Shown here: positions 1 through 25,235 of the stretch, piece after piece
How positions within the stretch are numbered: the stretch's first letter is position 1
How the letters are laid out: the number at the start of each line of letters is the position of its first letter
The notes under the pieces: model-generated
Seen by the model: only the letters and a program-made list of their open reading frames with translations
Told to the model about the DNA's origin: nothing
Databases searched by the model: none
Program-made: the position numbers and the translations under genes
Source of the DNA: Clostridia bacterium
GTDB lineage: Bacteria > Bacillota > Clostridia > Oscillospirales > Acutalibacteraceae
Reading direction: 5' to 3'
Length of the DNA: 48,906 nt
Assembly (NCBI GenBank): GCA_017465825.1
Contig: JAFTVI010000031.1
Span: forward strand, 1-48,906

Positions 1-155
1 AACAATGGTCATACAATAGAAATACAATGCAAAAAGGAGTTTCTTGGCAATTCACAACGGCTGATGCCAGAATCAAATTAAAACATCTTTACCCTATTAT
101 AGAAATGTAAAGTTTTAAATGAAACAAAGTACTACAATTACCAAGCAAATTCTCT

Positions 156-172
156 GCTAAATTATTGTTTAT
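156..172. repeat. short repeat GCTAAATTATTGTTTAT
   Basis: The same 17-base word recurs at about 9890-9906 and 21147-21163, and degenerate forms follow the foldback elements ending at 16926 and 25461. It appears to be the outer module of the intergenic repeats in this genome. The rest of 1-189 is AT-rich and I see no gene in it. Confidence 0.5.
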
Positions 173-189
173 TTTCCTCTCAAACAAAA

Positions 190-216
190 AAGCAGATACA
201 TTTCTGTACCTGCTTA
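190..216 (-). terminator. intrinsic terminator of the 214-534 gene
   Basis: Read on the minus strand, AAGCAGGTACA pairs with TGTATCTGCTT around a GAAA loop and is followed by a T run. The stop codon of the small gene lies in the first arm. Confidence 0.8.
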
Positions 217-534
217 AATATAATATTCATTTATTTCAAGAATTTCAAATTTGTATACCTTGAATTTACCTTTTTTGAATGCCTCGACGAAGGCGCCCGT
301 GGCGGTCAGTTTTTTTGTGGTAAGATAAACGTCCATTGTAACCTCAGAGTAGTGAAGCTCGGGCAGTTCCTCAAAAGCCGCAATTTCCATATACCGCTTG
401 TTTTCGTTCTTGTTGGTAAAAAGATAAAAGTTGAGCACGGGCAGAGTTTTGCCGCCTACCTCAATTTTTTCAAATTGACCTCTCGAGGCGTTTTTCTTTT
501 TCTTCTTTTTCTTGAATTTATCAAAAAATCCCAT
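214..534 (-). CDS. small basic hypothetical protein (106 aa)
   Basis: I do not recognise this protein. It starts MGFFDKF and continues with an almost uninterrupted lysine run (residues 6-14), followed by a mixed alpha/beta-looking segment without membrane helices. The lysine tract could be an RNA or membrane-surface anchor, but that is a guess. The start is supported by AAGGTGAT seven bases upstream of the ATG, a TTGACT-N17-TAAAAT promoter just before it, and a terminator overlapping the stop codon, so it is a self-contained transcription unit. It diverges from the glycosyltransferase at 655. Confidence 0.7.
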   Translation of the reverse strand: MGFFDKFKKKKKKKNASRGQFEKIEVGGKTLPVLNFYLFTNKNENKRYMEIAAFEELPELHYSEVTMDVYLTTKKLTATGAFVEAFKKGKFKVYKFEILEINEYYI

Positions 535-553
535 TCATATATCACCTTAAATT

Positions 554-582
554 ATTTTACAGTCAAAACCGGATTAAGTCAA
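554..582 (-). promoter_or_regulatory. sigma-A promoter for the 214-534 gene
   Basis: On the minus strand TTGACT (577-582) and TAAAAT (554-559) are separated by exactly 17 bases. The SD lies about ten bases downstream. Confidence 0.7.
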
Positions 583-620
583 TATAAAAATTTATCAAAA
601 GTATTTATTTTAGCAAAAAG

Positions 621-632
621 ATATGGTATAAT
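621..632 (+). promoter_or_regulatory. extended -10 promoter for the glycosyltransferase
   Basis: TATGGTATAAT provides a TGN-extended TATAAT (627-632). The -35 position (TTTATT) is weak. The implied transcript starts about 15 bases before the start codon, with GGAAGTG in between. Confidence 0.5.
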
Positions 633-654
633 ATTTTGAAAAGGAAGTGAAAAG

Positions 655-1593
655 ATGAAAAAACTGTCTGTTATCGTTCCCTGCTATAACGAAGCTGAGG
701 TTTTACCGGCATTTTATGATGAGATAACAAAGGTGCTTGATTCGCTGTACGGTTATTCGGTTGAACTGCTTTTTGTCAACGACGGCAGCCGCGATGAAAC
801 ACAGAATATAATTGAGAGCTTTGCAACGCGTGATGAAAGAGTAAAATATATTTCATTCTCAAGGAATTTCGGCAAGGAAGCCGCTATGCTGGCAGGTCTT
901 GAAAACTGCACGGGTGACTATGCAGGCTTTATAGATGCGGATTTACAGCATTCTCCCGACCTTATCCCCGAAATGCTCAAAGCCGTTGATGAGGACGGCT
1001 ATGATATCGCCGCCTGCAGGCGCGTTGACAGAGAGGGCGAGGCAAAATTAAAGAGCTTCCTTTCCGACGGATTTTACAAAATCGTAAATAGCATAACGGA
1101 TACTCACATTGACGACGGCGCGCAGGATTACCGCATTATGAACCGTAATGTGATAGATTCCATTCTTTCAATAAAGGAGAATGTCCGTTTTACAAAGGGT
1201 ATATTCAGCTGGGTCGGTTTCAATACAAAATGGTTTCCGCACCACAACCGCGAAAGAGCCGCAGGCGAAACAAAGTGGTCGCTTGTAAAGCTTCTGAAAT
1301 ACGCAATTGACGGCATTATCGGCTACACCTCCACACCTTTAAGATTCCCTCTTTACACAGGAATTCTGTCTTTGATTGCAGGCTTTGTATACACCGTTGT
1401 CCTTATTATTACGGCAATAGTCAGCGGTGGCTCACTTGCATTAGGTGTTGCCGCTGTTATAGATGCAGTCGTTATCGTCGGCGGACTTATCCTGTTGAGT
1501 ATCGGTATAGCAGGCGAGTATCTGTCAAGAATATATACCGAGGTAAAGGGTAGACCCAAATACCTCGTAGCAAAAACAAACTGTAAAAAATAA
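655..1593 (+). CDS. family 2 glycosyltransferase, GtrB/DPM1 type
   Basis: A membrane-anchored polyprenyl-phosphate glycosyltransferase of 312 residues. The N-terminal GT-A domain opens with LSVIVPCYNEAEVL, carries the nucleotide-sugar motif FVNDGSRDET and the metal-binding DADLQHSP segment (near residue 105), and is followed by two hydrophobic C-terminal helices (about 235-257 and 265-290). This order and length fit enzymes that transfer a sugar from a nucleotide donor to undecaprenyl phosphate on the inner membrane face, for later use in wall or lipid glycosylation. No flippase or acceptor gene lies beside it, so the sugar cannot be named. GGAAGTG precedes the ATG. Confidence 0.9.
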   Translation: MKKLSVIVPCYNEAEVLPAFYDEITKVLDSLYGYSVELLFVNDGSRDETQNIIESFATRDERVKYISFSRNFGKEAAMLAGLENCTGDYAGFIDADLQHSPDLIPEMLKAVDEDGYDIAACRRVDREGEAKLKSFLSDGFYKIVNSITDTHIDDGAQDYRIMNRNVIDSILSIKENVRFTKGIFSWVGFNTKWFPHHNRERAAGETKWSLVKLLKYAIDGIIGYTSTPLRFPLYTGILSLIAGFVYTVVLIITAIVSGGSLALGVAAVIDAVVIVGGLILLSIGIAGEYLSRIYTEVKGRPKYLVAKTNCKK

Positions 1594-9354: not shown

Positions 9355-9685
9355 ACAAGTGAGTTGGGCAATTGCGCATTTTTAATGTGAGGAAAGTCCG
9401 GGCTTCGCAGAGCAGGATAACGGCTAACAGCCGCCGAGGGTGACCTTAGGGACAGTGCAACAGAAATATACCGCCCATTCATGGGTAAGGATGGAAAGGC
9501 GAGGTAAGAGCTCACCGGCGTGCAGGAGACTGCACGGCCGTGTAAACCCTATCCGAAGCAACACCGACAGGAGTGGTCTGCTCGGCCATAACTCCGACGG
9601 GTGGCGTGAGCACAGGGGCAACCCTGAGCCAAGACAGATGATTGCCTTAAATGACAAAACCCGGCTTACAGACTCACTTGTTTTT
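9355..9685 (+). ncRNA. rnpB: RNase P RNA, bacterial type A
   Basis: Catalytic RNA that removes 5' leaders from tRNA precursors. The hallmark GAGGAAAGTCCGGGCT appears at 9390-9405 and GACAGTGCAACAGAAA with ATACCGCC follows at about 9450-9474. The 3' core AGACAGATGATTGCC and the closing ACAAAACCCGGCTTACAGAC (9655-9674) are present. Helix P1 is ACAAGTGAGT (9355-9364) with ACTCACTTGT (9672-9681). The layout is the ancestral A type, usual in Clostridia, rather than the Bacillus B type. Protein ORFs over this interval are spurious. Confidence 0.97.
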
Positions 9686-20954: not shown

Positions 20955-21121
20955 GTAGGGAGCGACGCCCTCATCGCTCCGAATCATCAAAATCTGCGAT
21001 TTTGATGATTTTATTGAACACTCATCATAAAAACTGACATTTTTGAATTTGCGATAAATCCTTGAATTGATGAAAATGGTACGTTTTCATCAATCGGAGC
21101 GACGAGGGCGTCGCTCCCTAC
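20955..21121. repeat. GTAGGGAGCGACG foldback element, copy A3
   Basis: Four hairpins: GGAGCGA/TCGCTCC end, ATCATCAAAATC/GATTTTGATGAT, TGATGAAAATG/CGTTTTCATCA, and GGAGCGACG/CGTCGCTCC end closing CCCTAC. Flanked on the left by GAACAACAATTCAGC and on the right by GCTAAATTATTGTTTAT, which are near complements and may be an outer module. The gap 20922-21235 holds this element and a shared terminator only. Confidence 0.85.
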
Positions 21122-21200
21122 AGGCAATACCATTCAATTTCTGCTCCGCTAAATTATTGTTTATCATTATCTTATTTTTCTGAATATTTTTCAGCAACCA

Positions 21201-21236
21201 AAAAAAGACGGAGTTATCAAACCCCGTCTTTTTTAT
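21201..21236. terminator. bidirectional terminator between kinase and corA
   Basis: AAAAAAGACGG pairs with CCGTCTTTTTT; T runs on both strands end the two convergent genes. Confidence 0.85.
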
Positions 21237-22180
21237 TACTTAAACTTTTTACTTTTCATAAATATGATCATTGCCACGAGAGAAATTGCCATTGCGCCGA
21301 GCACAACTATCGCAAATCCCCATTCGCTGTTGGCAAAGGGCATACCGTTAAGGTTTGTGTTCATTCCGTATGCGCTGAATATAAGCGTGGGAATGGACAG
21401 CACGATTGTAATAACCGAAAGCACCTTCATTACGATGTTGAGGTTGTTTGAAATAACAGAGGCGAATGCGTCCATCGTTCCGCTTAAAATGCCGGAGTAG
21501 ATGTTTGCCATTTCGATAGCCTGTTTGTTTTCAACGATAACGTCTTCAAGCAGGTCAACGTCTTCGGGATATTTCTTTATAATTTCAAGACGGAGCATTT
21601 TTTCGAGTATTGCTTCGTTTGAACGCAGAGCCGTTGTGAAGTAAACAAGGGATTTTTCAAGCTTTAAAAGCTCAATAAGCTCTTTGTTCTTCTGCGATTT
21701 GTGAAGCTCGTTTTCAACGTTTTCACTTTTCTTGTCAATGATTCTCAGGTATGCAAGGAAAAGTGACGATGTTTTGTAAAGAATCTGCAGGATGAAGCGT
21801 GATTTCATATAGGAATAGAAATCCTTCACCTTGCCTATTGCAAACTGGCGCAGAATCGGCGTATCCTCACTGCAGACGGTAATAACCGCATCGTCAACCA
21901 CAATGATTGCAAGGGGAATCGTGCTGTAAAGCTCCTTGTCTGTATCTTCCTCTCTTACGGGGATGTTAACAAGAATCATTGTGTAGTTGTCCTCAATCTC
22001 GATACGTGAACGCTCGTCGGCGTCAAGTGCGGCTTTAAGTGCGTCAATATCCAGATTGTATTTGTTTGAAATTCTGTTGAGCTCGGATTCGCCGGGCGCA
22101 ACAAGATTGACCCAACAACCGGGTTCGGGTCCTGTCAGCTCCTCAAGGTAGTTGTTCCTTGTGATGTAACAGTTTGTCAT
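21236..22180 (-). CDS. corA: CorA-family magnesium transporter
   Basis: Homopentameric Mg2+ (possibly Co2+/Ni2+) channel. The 314 residues comprise a large cytoplasmic N-terminal domain, a long helical stalk with charged residues (about 150-240), and two C-terminal membrane helices. The first helix ends in the diagnostic selectivity motif YGMN, followed by the loop TNLNGMPF. The frame extends upstream, but AAAGGACTT eight bases before the ATG at 22180 fixes the start. A 180-base leader with its own short ORF and a long stem precedes it (see 22243-22302 and 22189-22248), suggesting translational or attenuation control in response to Mg2+. Confidence 0.93.
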   Translation of the reverse strand: MTNCYITRNNYLEELTGPEPGCWVNLVAPGESELNRISNKYNLDIDALKAALDADERSRIEIEDNYTMILVNIPVREEDTDKELYSTIPLAIIVVDDAVITVCSEDTPILRQFAIGKVKDFYSYMKSRFILQILYKTSSLFLAYLRIIDKKSENVENELHKSQKNKELIELLKLEKSLVYFTTALRSNEAILEKMLRLEIIKKYPEDVDLLEDVIVENKQAIEMANIYSGILSGTMDAFASVISNNLNIVMKVLSVITIVLSIPTLIFSAYGMNTNLNGMPFANSEWGFAIVVLGAMAISLVAMIIFMKSKKFK

Positions 22181-22188
22181 ATTATCAA

Positions 22189-22248
22189 GTCCTTTCACAG
22201 CCGAACAAAACAAAGCCGTGAACGGACATTCAAAGCTTTGTTTTATTC
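22189..22248 (-). promoter_or_regulatory. corA leader stem with loop complementary to the ribosome site
   Basis: On the minus strand GAATAAAACAAAGC (22248-22235) pairs with GCTTTGTTTTGTTC (22216-22203) as 14 consecutive pairs with one G-U. The 5' arm contains the leader peptide stop codon. The loop segment GTCCGTTC (22227-22220) is complementary, with one mismatch, to GAAAGGAC (22196-22189), which is the corA Shine-Dalgarno. Pairing of stem and loop together would need a pseudoknot with a shortened stem; that geometry is inferred. Confidence 0.65.
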
Positions 22249-22302
22249 AGCGTATCTTTGTTCAGGCGGTATGTTGCTCCCTCGATAAGAATCGGGTTCC
22301 AT
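22243..22302 (-). CDS. 19-residue corA leader peptide
   Basis: An ATG at 22302 opens 19 codons, MEPDSYRGSNIPPEQRYAE, ending TAA. It is preceded by AAGGAAGTGA, nine of ten bases of the ideal ribosome site, six bases from the ATG, and lies about 60 bases downstream of a TTGACA promoter. The start MEPD matches what I recall of the enterobacterial mgtA leader peptide MgtL. Acidic residues mixed with proline are known from E. coli work to destabilise ribosomes at low Mg2+. The stop lies in the 5' arm of the corA leader stem. That it is translated and regulatory is inference. Confidence 0.65.
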   Translation of the reverse strand: MEPDSYRGSNIPPEQRYAE

Positions 22303-22366
22303 TATAAATCACTTCCTTGTTTATGGATTTTTCAAATATACCGTCAGATTATCTGAATGTTAATAT

Positions 22367-22394
22367 TTTATACCATTTTGCCCGTCCTTGTCAA
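22367..22394 (-). promoter_or_regulatory. corA promoter
   Basis: TTGACA (22389-22394) and TATAAA (22367-22372) on the minus strand with 16 bases between; predicted start near 22360, giving a leader of about 180 bases. Confidence 0.75.
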
Positions 22395-22465
22395 TGTTTT
22401 GTTTTAAAAGAACAATATTTTGTGAACCACTTATAATGAGGAAAATTCAGTAAATAATATTTTCG

Positions 22466-24079
22466 GTGATTGTTACGGAAAAGCGGGTTATTTTTTCATT
22501 TTTAACTGTTGTTGCACTGTGTTGCGGACTGATTTTCAAAATCGGTTCGCTGTCTGTATCTCAGTATTCTGAGGCGGGTGCAACCCAGAGTGCAAGGCGT
22601 GTTCAGGTGGCACAATCGAGAGGTATGATTTACGACAGAAATATGATTCCGCTTGTAAACAGGGAAATTTCTGCCGTGCTGATTGTCAATCCCACCGAAA
22701 ACGCTATGACCACTCTTTACCGATGCCTTACGCAGACTGAATACGCTGAGGCTGTTGAAAAAAGCAAAAAAGGAAGTCCTTTTCTTTTGTATACCCGGAA
22801 TTACAGCGGCGATTGCGACGATATCACAGAAATGACCGTTTACAGCAGGTATTCCGATTCCGATGTGTTATCCCACATTATCGGCTATCTCGACAGTGAG
22901 GGGAACGGCGCAAGCGGTTTGGAAAAATCATTCGACAGCCTTATGGATAAGAATTCGGGCACGCTGTCTGTCCGTTACCGCGCTGATGCAACGGGTAAAA
23001 TGCTTCGTGGTGAGGGATTTGAGGTCGCTTCGGATAATTATGCATCCTCTGCAGGTCTTGTGCTGACAGTTGATTATGAAATTCAGAGCGTTTGTGAGAA
23101 TATAATGGAATATAATAATATAGAAAGCGGCGCCGTTGTCGTTCTTGATGCCGCGACCGGTGAAATTCTCGCTCTTGCAAGCAGTCCCGAATTTGACAGG
23201 GAGGATATGTCCGCATCCCTTGCAGATGAGAATTCGCCTTTTCTTAACAGAGCGCTGAGTTCGTATGCGGTAGGTTCGGTTTTTAAGCCTGTTGTTGCGG
23301 CGGCGGCTCTTGAACAGGGCATTTCGGAGGATTTGATTTTTACCTGTGACGGCTATGTTACGGTTAACGGTATACGGTTCAACTGTCATAAGAAAGACGG
23401 ACACGGTACCGTCAGTATGACCGAGGCAATGGCTGTGTCCTGCAATTCATATTTTATTCAGCTCGGTCAGCTTGTGGGCGCGGAAAATATACTCCATACT
23501 GCATCACAGCTCGGTTTCGGCTCAAAAATCACTCTTGCAGATTCAATTGTGTCCGTTGCAGGTATTCTTCCCGATATTGCGGATATTGATTCTTCTGCCT
23601 CTCTTGCAAATCTTTCCTTCGGTCAGGGCACACTCCTTGCAACTCCTCTGCAGATTGGCGCAGTTTATTGCGCCTTTGTCAACGGCGGCTATTACAGAGA
23701 GCCTTATATATTAAAGGAAATAACTGATGAAAACGGAGAGATTCAAGCATATTATGAAAGCGAAACGAATAATAAGGTATTAACGGACAGCGTCTGTAAA
23801 AAAATCCGTTCAATGCTTGAAGAAACAGTTGCAAGCGGCAGCGGAAAGCTTGCCGCCCCTATGGAAAATGAAGCCGCAGGCAAAACCGCTACGGCGGAAA
23901 CGGGCTGGACGGAGAACGGAAGAGAAATCGTGCATACCTGGTTTGCAGGCTATTATCCTGCAGACGAACCGCAGTATGTCATAGTTGTGTTTAAAGAGGA
24001 CGGAGTTTCATCCTCTACCGAGTGCGCCCCGATTTTCAGAGATATTGTCGATAATATCAGCCACAAAACCGAAAAATAG
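22466..24079 (+). CDS. class B penicillin-binding protein (FtsI/SpoVD-like)
   Basis: Membrane-anchored DD-transpeptidase cross-linking peptidoglycan, 537 residues. One N-terminal helix (about 8-30) is followed by a non-catalytic dimerisation domain (RGMIYDRNMIPLVNR near 51; HIIGYLDSEGNGASGLEKSFD near 138) and the transpeptidase domain. The active Ser271-x-x-Lys274 (SVFK) and Ser325-Cys326-Asn327 are intact; the third box reads K473-T-A instead of the usual KTG. There are no PASTA repeats. The GTG start has no clear Shine-Dalgarno nearby. It diverges from corA and is not in a division cluster, so a sporulation or accessory role is possible. Confidence 0.88.
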   Translation: MIVTEKRVIFSFLTVVALCCGLIFKIGSLSVSQYSEAGATQSARRVQVAQSRGMIYDRNMIPLVNREISAVLIVNPTENAMTTLYRCLTQTEYAEAVEKSKKGSPFLLYTRNYSGDCDDITEMTVYSRYSDSDVLSHIIGYLDSEGNGASGLEKSFDSLMDKNSGTLSVRYRADATGKMLRGEGFEVASDNYASSAGLVLTVDYEIQSVCENIMEYNNIESGAVVVLDAATGEILALASSPEFDREDMSASLADENSPFLNRALSSYAVGSVFKPVVAAAALEQGISEDLIFTCDGYVTVNGIRFNCHKKDGHGTVSMTEAMAVSCNSYFIQLGQLVGAENILHTASQLGFGSKITLADSIVSVAGILPDIADIDSSASLANLSFGQGTLLATPLQIGAVYCAFVNGGYYREPYILKEITDENGEIQAYYESETNNKVLTDSVCKKIRSMLEETVASGSGKLAAPMENEAAGKTATAETGWTENGREIVHTWFAGYYPADEPQYVIVVFKEDGVSSSTECAPIFRDIVDNISHKTEK

Positions 24080-24180: not shown

Positions 24181-24260
24181 TAATATAACCGGTGTAATGC
24201 ACACCAAAATAGTAATTGGGTTAGTAAAAGATGTAATCCATGAAAGGGGTAACTCAAGAT

Positions 24261-25235
24261 ATGAAAAAAAGCCACGAGTACGATTCACCCGTACTTTCCA
24301 GACTCGTTTCTGTTGTTACTGTTTTAGCACTTTGCGTATGCTCAGTTTGCTGCATCGTAACCGCATCCAAGGTTTCAACAATCGCTACAGGCGGCACTGT
24401 TGTTTCTGATGGCAACACAGATAACAGCACATCCAATCCCGGTACTTCAACAACACCCGGCACATCCAATCCCGGTACTTCAACAACACCCGGTACAGAT
24501 GATTCAAACACAGAAACACCCGGTGCAGATGATTCAAACACAGAAACACCCGGTACAGATGATCCAGGTTCTGATGCTCCCGCAACTTCCGGTCCTACCA
24601 ACGAGGAGATTCTTGCTAAGTACACAGAAGTTATGAATCAGCTCAAGGACGGCGTTGCTACATACGAGAAGAAAGAGTTCCAGACTCTTGCTGATGACTA
24701 TGACCTCGGTACAGTTGGTAACCTTGTTCTTCCCATCGCTCAGGGTCTTATGACTTCTGAGGATGAAGCTGATATTCAGCAGAGAGATGACAAGGCTCAG
24801 ATTCCGATTGTCAGAAACGACAAGGGCTGTCTTCTTACAGATGCAAGTGCTATCAAGTCAGCTTCTATGACTGAAAGCGGCGGCAAGACAACTATCGTTA
24901 TCGTTCTTAACGACGAAAAAGATGCTCGTCCCGCAGCTGACGGTGCAGCATCCTGCGACAGTATAGTTGGTTCAATGTTCAATCCTCTTGACCAGGAAGA
25001 AATCGACAACATCGTTGCTGAGTTCTCAGGCGTTGTTACAATGAAGAAGTTCGACCTTACTTGTAAGGATTGTACAGCTACACTTGTATTTGATACAGCA
25101 ACAGGTAAAGTTGAATCTCTTACACAGATTATGAACTACTTCATCGAAGTTGACGCAACAGCAGTTGTTGTTCCCGTTTCAGGTTACGCAACTCTTACCA
25201 ACAAGATGACAATCAACAACGTTACATACAAATAA
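24261..25235 (+). CDS. exported or anchored protein with Pro/Thr repeat linker
   Basis: I do not recognise this 324-residue protein. A hydrophobic helix rich in cysteine and valine (about 12-36) would anchor or export it. Residues about 52-110 are a low-complexity linker built of TSNPGTSTTPG and DDSNTETPG units, and a folded C-terminal domain of about 210 residues follows, with four cysteines including CKDC. The ATG at 24240 opens the frame, but AAAGGGG lies inside that extension and fits the ATG at 24261. Own promoter and strong terminator; codon choice (frequent CTT, GTT, AAG) suggests high expression. Confidence 0.75.
   Translation: MKKSHEYDSPVLSRLVSVVTVLALCVCSVCCIVTASKVSTIATGGTVVSDGNTDNSTSNPGTSTTPGTSNPGTSTTPGTDDSNTETPGADDSNTETPGTDDPGSDAPATSGPTNEEILAKYTEVMNQLKDGVATYEKKEFQTLADDYDLGTVGNLVLPIAQGLMTSEDEADIQQRDDKAQIPIVRNDKGCLLTDASAIKSASMTESGGKTTIVIVLNDEKDARPAADGAASCDSIVGSMFNPLDQEEIDNIVAEFSGVVTMKKFDLTCKDCTATLVFDTATGKVESLTQIMNYFIEVDATAVVVPVSGYATLTNKMTINNVTYK
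24435..24560 (+). repeat. in-frame tandem repeats in the linker
   Basis: Two 33-base units (24435-24467, 24468-24500) encode 11-residue Asn-Pro-Gly-Thr repeats; two 30-base units (24501-24530, 24531-24560) encode 10-residue Asp-Ser-Asn-Thr repeats. Units within each pair are nearly identical, a likely site for copy-number slippage. Confidence 0.85.

Follow-up and report, generated by a model that had tools for sequence, protein, structure and literature searches.

How is corA, the gene for a CorA-family magnesium transporter, controlled in the Clostridia bacterium whose DNA is analysed here (the window, a stretch of 48,906 nucleotides), and does the short translated leader in front of it tell the cell how much Mg2+ it contains? 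The original prediction held that ribosomes fall off the acidic/proline-rich start of this leader at low Mg2+, and that altered occupancy of a stem then changes corA expression. As a whole, this interpretation is partly supported by the analysis below, which covers the window, its genus and the wider class.

The corA leader and its two exclusive hairpins

Direct reading upstream of corA showed a promoter-like site where the consensus promoter had been predicted, and confirmed the 19-codon leader ORF with a strong Shine-Dalgarno sequence (SD). The elements are as follows:

21236..22180, minus strand: corA, CorA-family magnesium transporter, ATG at 22180 (Pfam CorA PF01544, E 2.2e-55)
22365..22394, minus strand: promoter-like pair TTGACA/TAAAAT of the leader (11/12 consensus positions)
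22310..22318, minus strand: leader SD AAGGAAGTG, 7 nt 5' of the ATG, read from the sequence
22243..22302, minus strand: leader ORF MEPDSYRGSNIPPEQRYAE, 19 codons plus TAA (ATG 22302, TAA 22243)
22234..22254, minus strand: A, 5' arm of the antisequestor, with the last leader codons and the stop
22196..22217, minus strand: A', 3' arm of the antisequestor
22214..22227, minus strand: B, anti-Shine-Dalgarno arm of the sequestor, mostly inside the A:A' loop
22189..22202, minus strand: B', 3' arm of the sequestor, with the corA SD AAAGGA

In 1.7 kb, a motif scan reported five promoter-like sites where shuffles would give 4.1, so the promoter call rests on position and on the hexamers of relatives, which resemble those of the leader promoter in most members of the genus (not clearly in locus L085). 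On the opposite strand, a divergent ORF (22466-24079) resembles a penicillin-binding protein by eye; its start and the promoter-like site of corA are ~70 nt apart. Tandem repeats at 24427-24563 encode a Pro/Gly/Thr-rich stretch within the ORF 24240-25235.

The leader stop had been placed inside a 14-bp stem, and a loop had been described as complementary, at seven of eight positions, to the corA ribosome site. The stop does lie inside A, but the stem is longer than stated, A:A' having 21 pairs, 18 of them contiguous; the pairing to the ribosome site is likewise real and was understated, as B:B' comprises 13 pairs. Ten bases are common to both hairpins and the arms are interleaved in the order A-B-A'-B', so that A:A' and B:B' cannot both form fully. 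Evaluated separately, the two states have energies of -30.2 (A:A') and -18.0 kcal/mol (B:B'); since A:A' is the stronger, the default state without a ribosome should be 'on'. The fold of the leader region (22370-22150) reaches -53 kcal/mol against a shuffle mean of -36.7 (z -4.24, none of 200 shuffles as good), and the individual hairpins stand out as well (z -4.6 for the SD-burying B:B' and -6.3 for A:A', none of 150 shuffles each). Read from the sequence, the anatomy points to burial of the corA SD as the mode of control, and what had been proposed as altered stem occupancy is sharpened here to a competing hairpin that would bury this site.

We also considered an intrinsic terminator as the switch and rejected it: the sole terminator-like site in 21000-22700 (one found, 1.8 expected) is inside corA (22124-22110). 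A strong fold and two alternative hairpins could also belong to an RNA that is itself a Mg2+-responsive riboswitch, the ORF only setting the timing of the ribosome. The M-box (ykoK) riboswitch RF00380, an aptamer RNA, controls Mg2+ transporter genes in cis in Firmicutes. Neither the M-box nor any other known riboswitch was found in the window at gathering score in the Rfam scan, and no Rfam family falls in the leader at that score. The sole match in the window was a bacterial class A RNase P RNA (9356-9684).

Conservation in the genus and beyond

To collect corA together with its upstream DNA, we searched 98 related genomes and scanned named genomes once. Eight of ten same-genus genomes carry corA (no match in the other two), the leader is present in all eight, and all nine corA-bearing genomes, the window included, keep a 19-codon M-x-P-D ORF, as a check suggested with the original prediction had anticipated. 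Eight of them, the window and seven same-genus relatives, form the genus alignment; the ninth, G005, in which corA is split over contigs, has a 19-codon leader, MEPDSYPGTNVPPKRRNAE. The aligned ORFs are 19 codons long in eight of eight rows and show synonymous bias (pN/pS 0.39), and the leader SD, AAGGA.GTGA, is constant. So is M-x-P-D, whereas the expected Met-Glu-Pro-Asp is not: MEPD starts three rows, MVPD four and MDPD one, leaving residue 2 acidic in four rows and Val in four.

Both stems persist in the genus. The cells of B:B' are paired at 97.1% (35-49% when slid) and those of A:A' at 86.9% (34-50% when slid), the two outermost A:A' pairs being poorly kept (paired in one and two of the eight rows). 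Covariation, which had been named as a check on the stem, is thin, with one double change per helix. In each of the eight aligned leaders, both hairpins were better than shuffles (p printed as 0.00 or 0.01 of 150). When A was covered, the unpaired probability of the corA SD was 0.00-0.26 in the eight leaders; when A was free, it exceeded the A-shuffled mean in all eight, the weakest case being L085 (0.05 versus 0.01). Short ORFs are common and single-genome folds can mislead, yet a chance ORF with chance hairpins is contradicted in this genus by the conservation, by the pN/pS and by the hairpins in every aligned row.

For the situation outside the genus, 67 corA leaders were selected by eye and in knowledge of the motif: 46 from 80 named-genome loci, which were the best 80 of at least 578 relatives, and 21 from the window and its relatives, copies excluded. 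No leader could be picked in the remaining 34 of the 80 named-genome loci. Because the 67 were chosen in this way, the enrichment claims made below rest on other locus sets. Distant relatives (e.g., L007, L008, L013 and L053) show the same layout in other bases. Fourteen of the 67 leaders were unfit for the hairpin test, as the leader end overlaps corA or lies too near it; among the 53 testable ones, a sequestor was found at p <= 0.1 in 29, an antisequestor in 35 and both in 23. Over 55 loci, the effects on SD accessibility were weak (A free versus A-shuffled, p 0.042; A covered versus null, p 0.046), and the comparison of free with covered was not significant (p 0.11). In the class-wide and pattern-derived leaders introduced below, 15 of 39 were testable and hairpins were rare (corA, 3 and 2 of 9; mgtE, 2 and 3 of 6, the mgtE counts including L131, a spurious match). 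We rejected a universal RNA switch, as the class-wide leaders seldom show hairpins and the 55-locus accessibility is marginal: within the genus the RNA switch stands out clearly, and elsewhere it is patchy. We also set aside the idea that 5' arms gather around the stop of the leader, the excess over shuffles being modest (26/48 helices overlapping the footprint of a terminating ribosome versus 123/315).

Spacing bears on translational coupling, i.e., re-initiation from the leader stop onto corA with no sensing. The stop lies 62 nt from the corA start in the window, and several relatives have overlap or near-contact, an arrangement that coupling would explain. Against this, the hand-picked corA leaders range from overlap to 195 nt, and coupling gives no role to the peptide start or the SD-burying hairpin; we regard it as very unlikely. 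By eye, seven further corA loci (L037, L039 and L042-L046) have promoter-like hexamers within ~75 nt of the corA start and no pickable leader ORF, and these are possible natural leaderless versions.

The peptide start across the class

The class sample comprised 245 genomes, of which 190 contain MgtE_N and 123 match CorA. The loci taken from it do not sample genes at random: the corA set holds 69 of 82 matches at E <= 1e-50, taken from the top of the list (the other 13 had been met before, were truncated at the end of a contig, lay in pieces or stood low in the list), and the mgtE set holds the best 70 among the matches listed. The final form of the motif was set after loci L123-L181 had been seen, and 80 later loci (40 corA, 40 mgtE) served as a hold-out. 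For residue-wise scoring, the control was free of the mgtE leaders of L120-L122 and of loci L262-L275, and peptides sharing their first ten residues were collapsed.

Scored with no motif at all, short ORFs preceded by an SD (SD-ORFs) upstream of corA were enriched over the control in D4 (19/39 versus 14/748), D2 (14/39 versus 21/748) and P5 (17/39 versus 55/748); upstream of mgtE, D2 led (23/59 versus 21/748), followed by G4, A3 and P5. The motif M[DE]xxP occurred in 13 of 39 SD-ORFs upstream of corA (p 1.2e-16) and in 12 of 59 upstream of mgtE (p 6.2e-13), against 2 of 748 in the control. In the named and related corA set, from which the motif had been discovered, it reached 27/87 (p 1.8e-26). 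Among distinct SD-ORFs of the hold-out, it recurred in 6 of 20 for corA (p 3.8e-9) and 6 of 29 for mgtE (p 4.2e-8). Together with the pN/pS and the class-wide enrichment, this led us to reject a chance ORF, and chance as an account of both ORF and hairpins is scarcely credible.

Counted by locus, a wide form of the motif preceded 18 of 69 corA and 16 of 70 mgtE genes, with none before 30 TrkH genes (p 0.0007 and 0.0018); in this count the mgtE leaders of L120-L122 were still part of the control set, L094 was excluded for having no start, and L131 (MAPEAWC...), whose match is spurious, was included. Most class-wide loci are without the wide motif (51/69 corA, 54/70 mgtE). The TrkH control is small, its 30 loci yielding only three SD-ORFs, none with either motif, and 19 loci of other P-type ATPases yielded seven SD-ORFs, again none with either. 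MgtA is too sparse for a claim: 11 loci over the curated cut-off gave five SD-ORFs, one with the wide motif (MEDGLPSN...) and none with M[DE]xxP. As a suggestive observation only, 3 of the 11 MgtA-type genes (L278, L279 and L280) have SD-preceded short ORFs that start MD or ME (MDSERG, MDMADQ and MEDGLP). Searches of Pfam and NCBIfam with nine related peptides of 20-30 residues (a set separate from the 19-residue window peptide) returned no match at E <= 1.

The codons at these positions bear on the riboswitch reading. Asp2 is written GAC 14 and GAT 16 times, Glu2 is GAA 20 and GAG 2 times, Pro5 is CCT in 36 of 52 cases (CCC 11, CCG 4, CCA 1) and Gly4 is GGG in 15 of 23 (GGT 4, GGA 4). Codon use at conserved sites is thus varied but skewed; the skew could have an alternative source in RNA constraint, as a riboswitch would have it. 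On the other side, conserved residues use several synonymous codons, including both for Asp and all four for Pro, and the RNA device is not general whereas the peptide start recurs: with so few testable class-wide leaders having hairpins, the start is the more widespread of the two. We therefore give a Mg2+-responsive riboswitch little credence. The class-wide enrichment of acidic residues and proline, as far as sequence can tell, fits a trigger of ribosome loss at low Mg2+.

Three DNA patterns, each an SD plus first codons, were searched irrespective of the downstream gene. In the window's own genome, the leader-start pattern has a single match, the corA leader. M-x-P-[DE] had seven matches in 200 family genomes against four for the reversed pattern; three are genus corA leaders (the window included), and one, L114, from a different genus within the family to which the window belongs, is a 24-codon ORF, MEPEGCC..., with AGGAGGTG, 42 nt before mgtE (45-1394, minus strand). 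At the other three (L113, L115 and L119), no short leader of a Mg2+ gene was discernible. M-[DE]-x-G-P had three matches in 341 class genomes (reversed control, three), and all of them (L120-L122) are short ORFs directly before mgtE. M-D-x-[DG]-P had 14 matches in 12 of 398 phylum genomes (reversed control, 16): one before corA (L272), three before mgtE (L263, an ORF of 85 codons running into the gene; L269, an overlapping ORF of 51 codons; and L274), three before a PRC-barrel gene (L265, L266 and L275), and seven (L262, L264, L267, L268, L270, L271 and L273) not before a Mg2+-transport gene. The PRC-barrel genes of L266 and L275 carry MgtE_N and CBS; that of L265 has the PRC part only, with an MgtE_N-like stretch after it by eye. 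Altogether, 11 of the 21 non-genus matches of the forward patterns, the ones whose downstream genes were read, precede Mg2+-transport genes (mgtE, corA, MgtE_N). The raw match counts do not exceed those of the reversed controls, a point in favour of chance.

By eye, L266 (1514-2820) and L275 (1515-2896) read as an M-D-x-[DG]-P leader, a PRC-barrel/MgtE_N/CBS gene and then an Nramp-like start, and they are perhaps Mg2+-type Nramp operons. Operons of mgtE and nramp associated with the M-box have been reported (PMC4072509). Two loci have an M-box, a leader ORF starting MDSGP and mgtE in this order (L121:1277-1444 and L122:1250-1415), the M-box ending ~70 nt and ~100 nt, respectively, before the leader start. 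The idea that M-box and leader are mutually exclusive was ruled out by these two loci, at each of which the mRNA would carry a pair of putative Mg2+ sensors, one after the other. Scanning found the M-box in 2 of 20 loci (none in the other 18) and in 5 of 40 further mgtE loci; the scan covered all but 13 of the 73 mgtE loci of L120-L152 and L222-L261. The scope of the original prediction, corA only, proved too narrow, as mgtE and MgtE_N/Nramp-type genes also have such starts in front of them, in two cases downstream of an M-box. In the class, similar peptide starts appear to serve corA, mgtE and MgtE_N/Nramp-type genes, with RNA switches that differ or are not evident.

A probable nascent-chain sensor and its precedents

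The closest parallels are enterobacterial. In Salmonella, MgtQ, the leader ORF of mgtB, needs Asp2 and Glu5, and stems bury or free the mgtB ribosome-binding site (PMC8092293). The window leader resembles MgtQ in being a short ORF with a strong SD and acidic residues near its start, and in having alternative stems, the inhibitory one holding the ribosome-binding site of the transporter gene (PMC8092293); in MgtQ, control acts at translation and translation of the ORF is inverse to that of the transporter (PMC8092293), both of which we propose here by analogy. MgtQ differs in phylum, in lying between genes rather than in a 5' leader, in its eight codons, in its transporter (MgtB) and in that its Pro is dispensable (PMC8092293); its stems 1:2 and 3:4 compete with 2:3 (PMC8092293), whereas the arms here run A-B-A'-B' and A contains the stop of the leader.

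In MgtL, the mgtA leader of E. coli and Salmonella, ribosomes are lost at EPDP under limiting Mg2+ and the transporter is turned on (PMC11282234). This EPDP lies near the start, as does M-E-P-D in the window, and the likeness is drawn from the start motif; MgtL differs in acting through Rho-dependent termination, on another gene and in another phylum (PMC11282234). In the same two organisms, corA has an upstream ORF, CorL, that likewise has two exclusive structures and leader translation inverse to corA, the latter also proposed here (PMC11552253); it differs in being Rho-dependent and in its reportedly fewer acidic and proline residues (PMC11552253). An RNA 'corA motif' is known from Gammaproteobacteria and metagenomic DNA (PMC6429828), and an 'mgtE motif' RNA has been described from Thioalkalivibrio. 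In Mycobacterium tuberculosis, an Mbox followed by a conserved uORF, rv1805A, precedes Mg2+-related genes, similar to the L121 and L122 arrangement; that peptide is reported as mycobacteria-specific and mostly carries a proline at position 7, and its role was unclear to the authors (PMC12810186).

By analogy with these systems, the leader would work like MgtQ and MgtL, and we consider it probable that it is a cis-acting, translated sensor of intracellular Mg2+ that operates through the ribosome and the nascent chain. With ample Mg2+, ribosomes would reach the leader stop and cover A, B:B' would form and corA would be off. Given the usual size of its footprint, a ribosome bound at the stop would cover A. 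At low Mg2+, the M-x-P-D start would destabilise the ribosome within about five codons; because A begins only at leader codon 17, such early loss would leave it free, A:A' would form, the corA SD would be single-stranded and CorA would be made. The drop-off, its Mg2+ dependence and the direction of control are what we infer from the analogy; the anatomy, the conservation and the gene context were read from the genomes themselves.

The same regulatory leader might instead slow ribosomes generally at its proline/acidic start (depending on EF-P, EttA-like ABC-F factors, the state of bL31 or proline charging), so that corA would follow translation stress rather than a Mg2+-dependent drop-off. The conserved positions of the leader are indeed Pro and acidic ones, in E. 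coli the pausing that MgtL undergoes at acidic residues is relieved by EttA (PMC11282234), and the present data fit Mg2+ and other elongation stress alike. What speaks against it is that the peptide start is tied to more than one family of Mg2+ transporters and twice to the M-box, and that it is absent before TrkH, small as those numbers are. We judge general translation stress unlikely, though it deserves some weight.

Returning to the nascent-chain sensor, we lean slightly towards a broader claim as well: that Clostridia possess a widespread, undescribed class of such Mg2+ sensors, in which a portable M-D/E-x-D/G-P start is combined with varied RNA devices in CorA, MgtE and Nramp-type operons, sometimes behind an M-box. 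Among the papers listed by searches of open-access literature, which leaves out most subscription papers, none described leaders of this kind from Firmicutes, and Mg2+ sensing by a fragile nascent chain has so far been worked out in enterobacteria (E. coli and Salmonella). The 67 hand-picked corA leaders are natural variants for asking which early peptides destabilise ribosomes. If the claim is true, these leaders would be the Gram-positive counterpart of MgtL and MgtQ, and ribosome destabilisation would be a general bacterial gauge of Mg2+, one that needs no RNA aptamer and may evolve by the addition of a few codons to any transporter.
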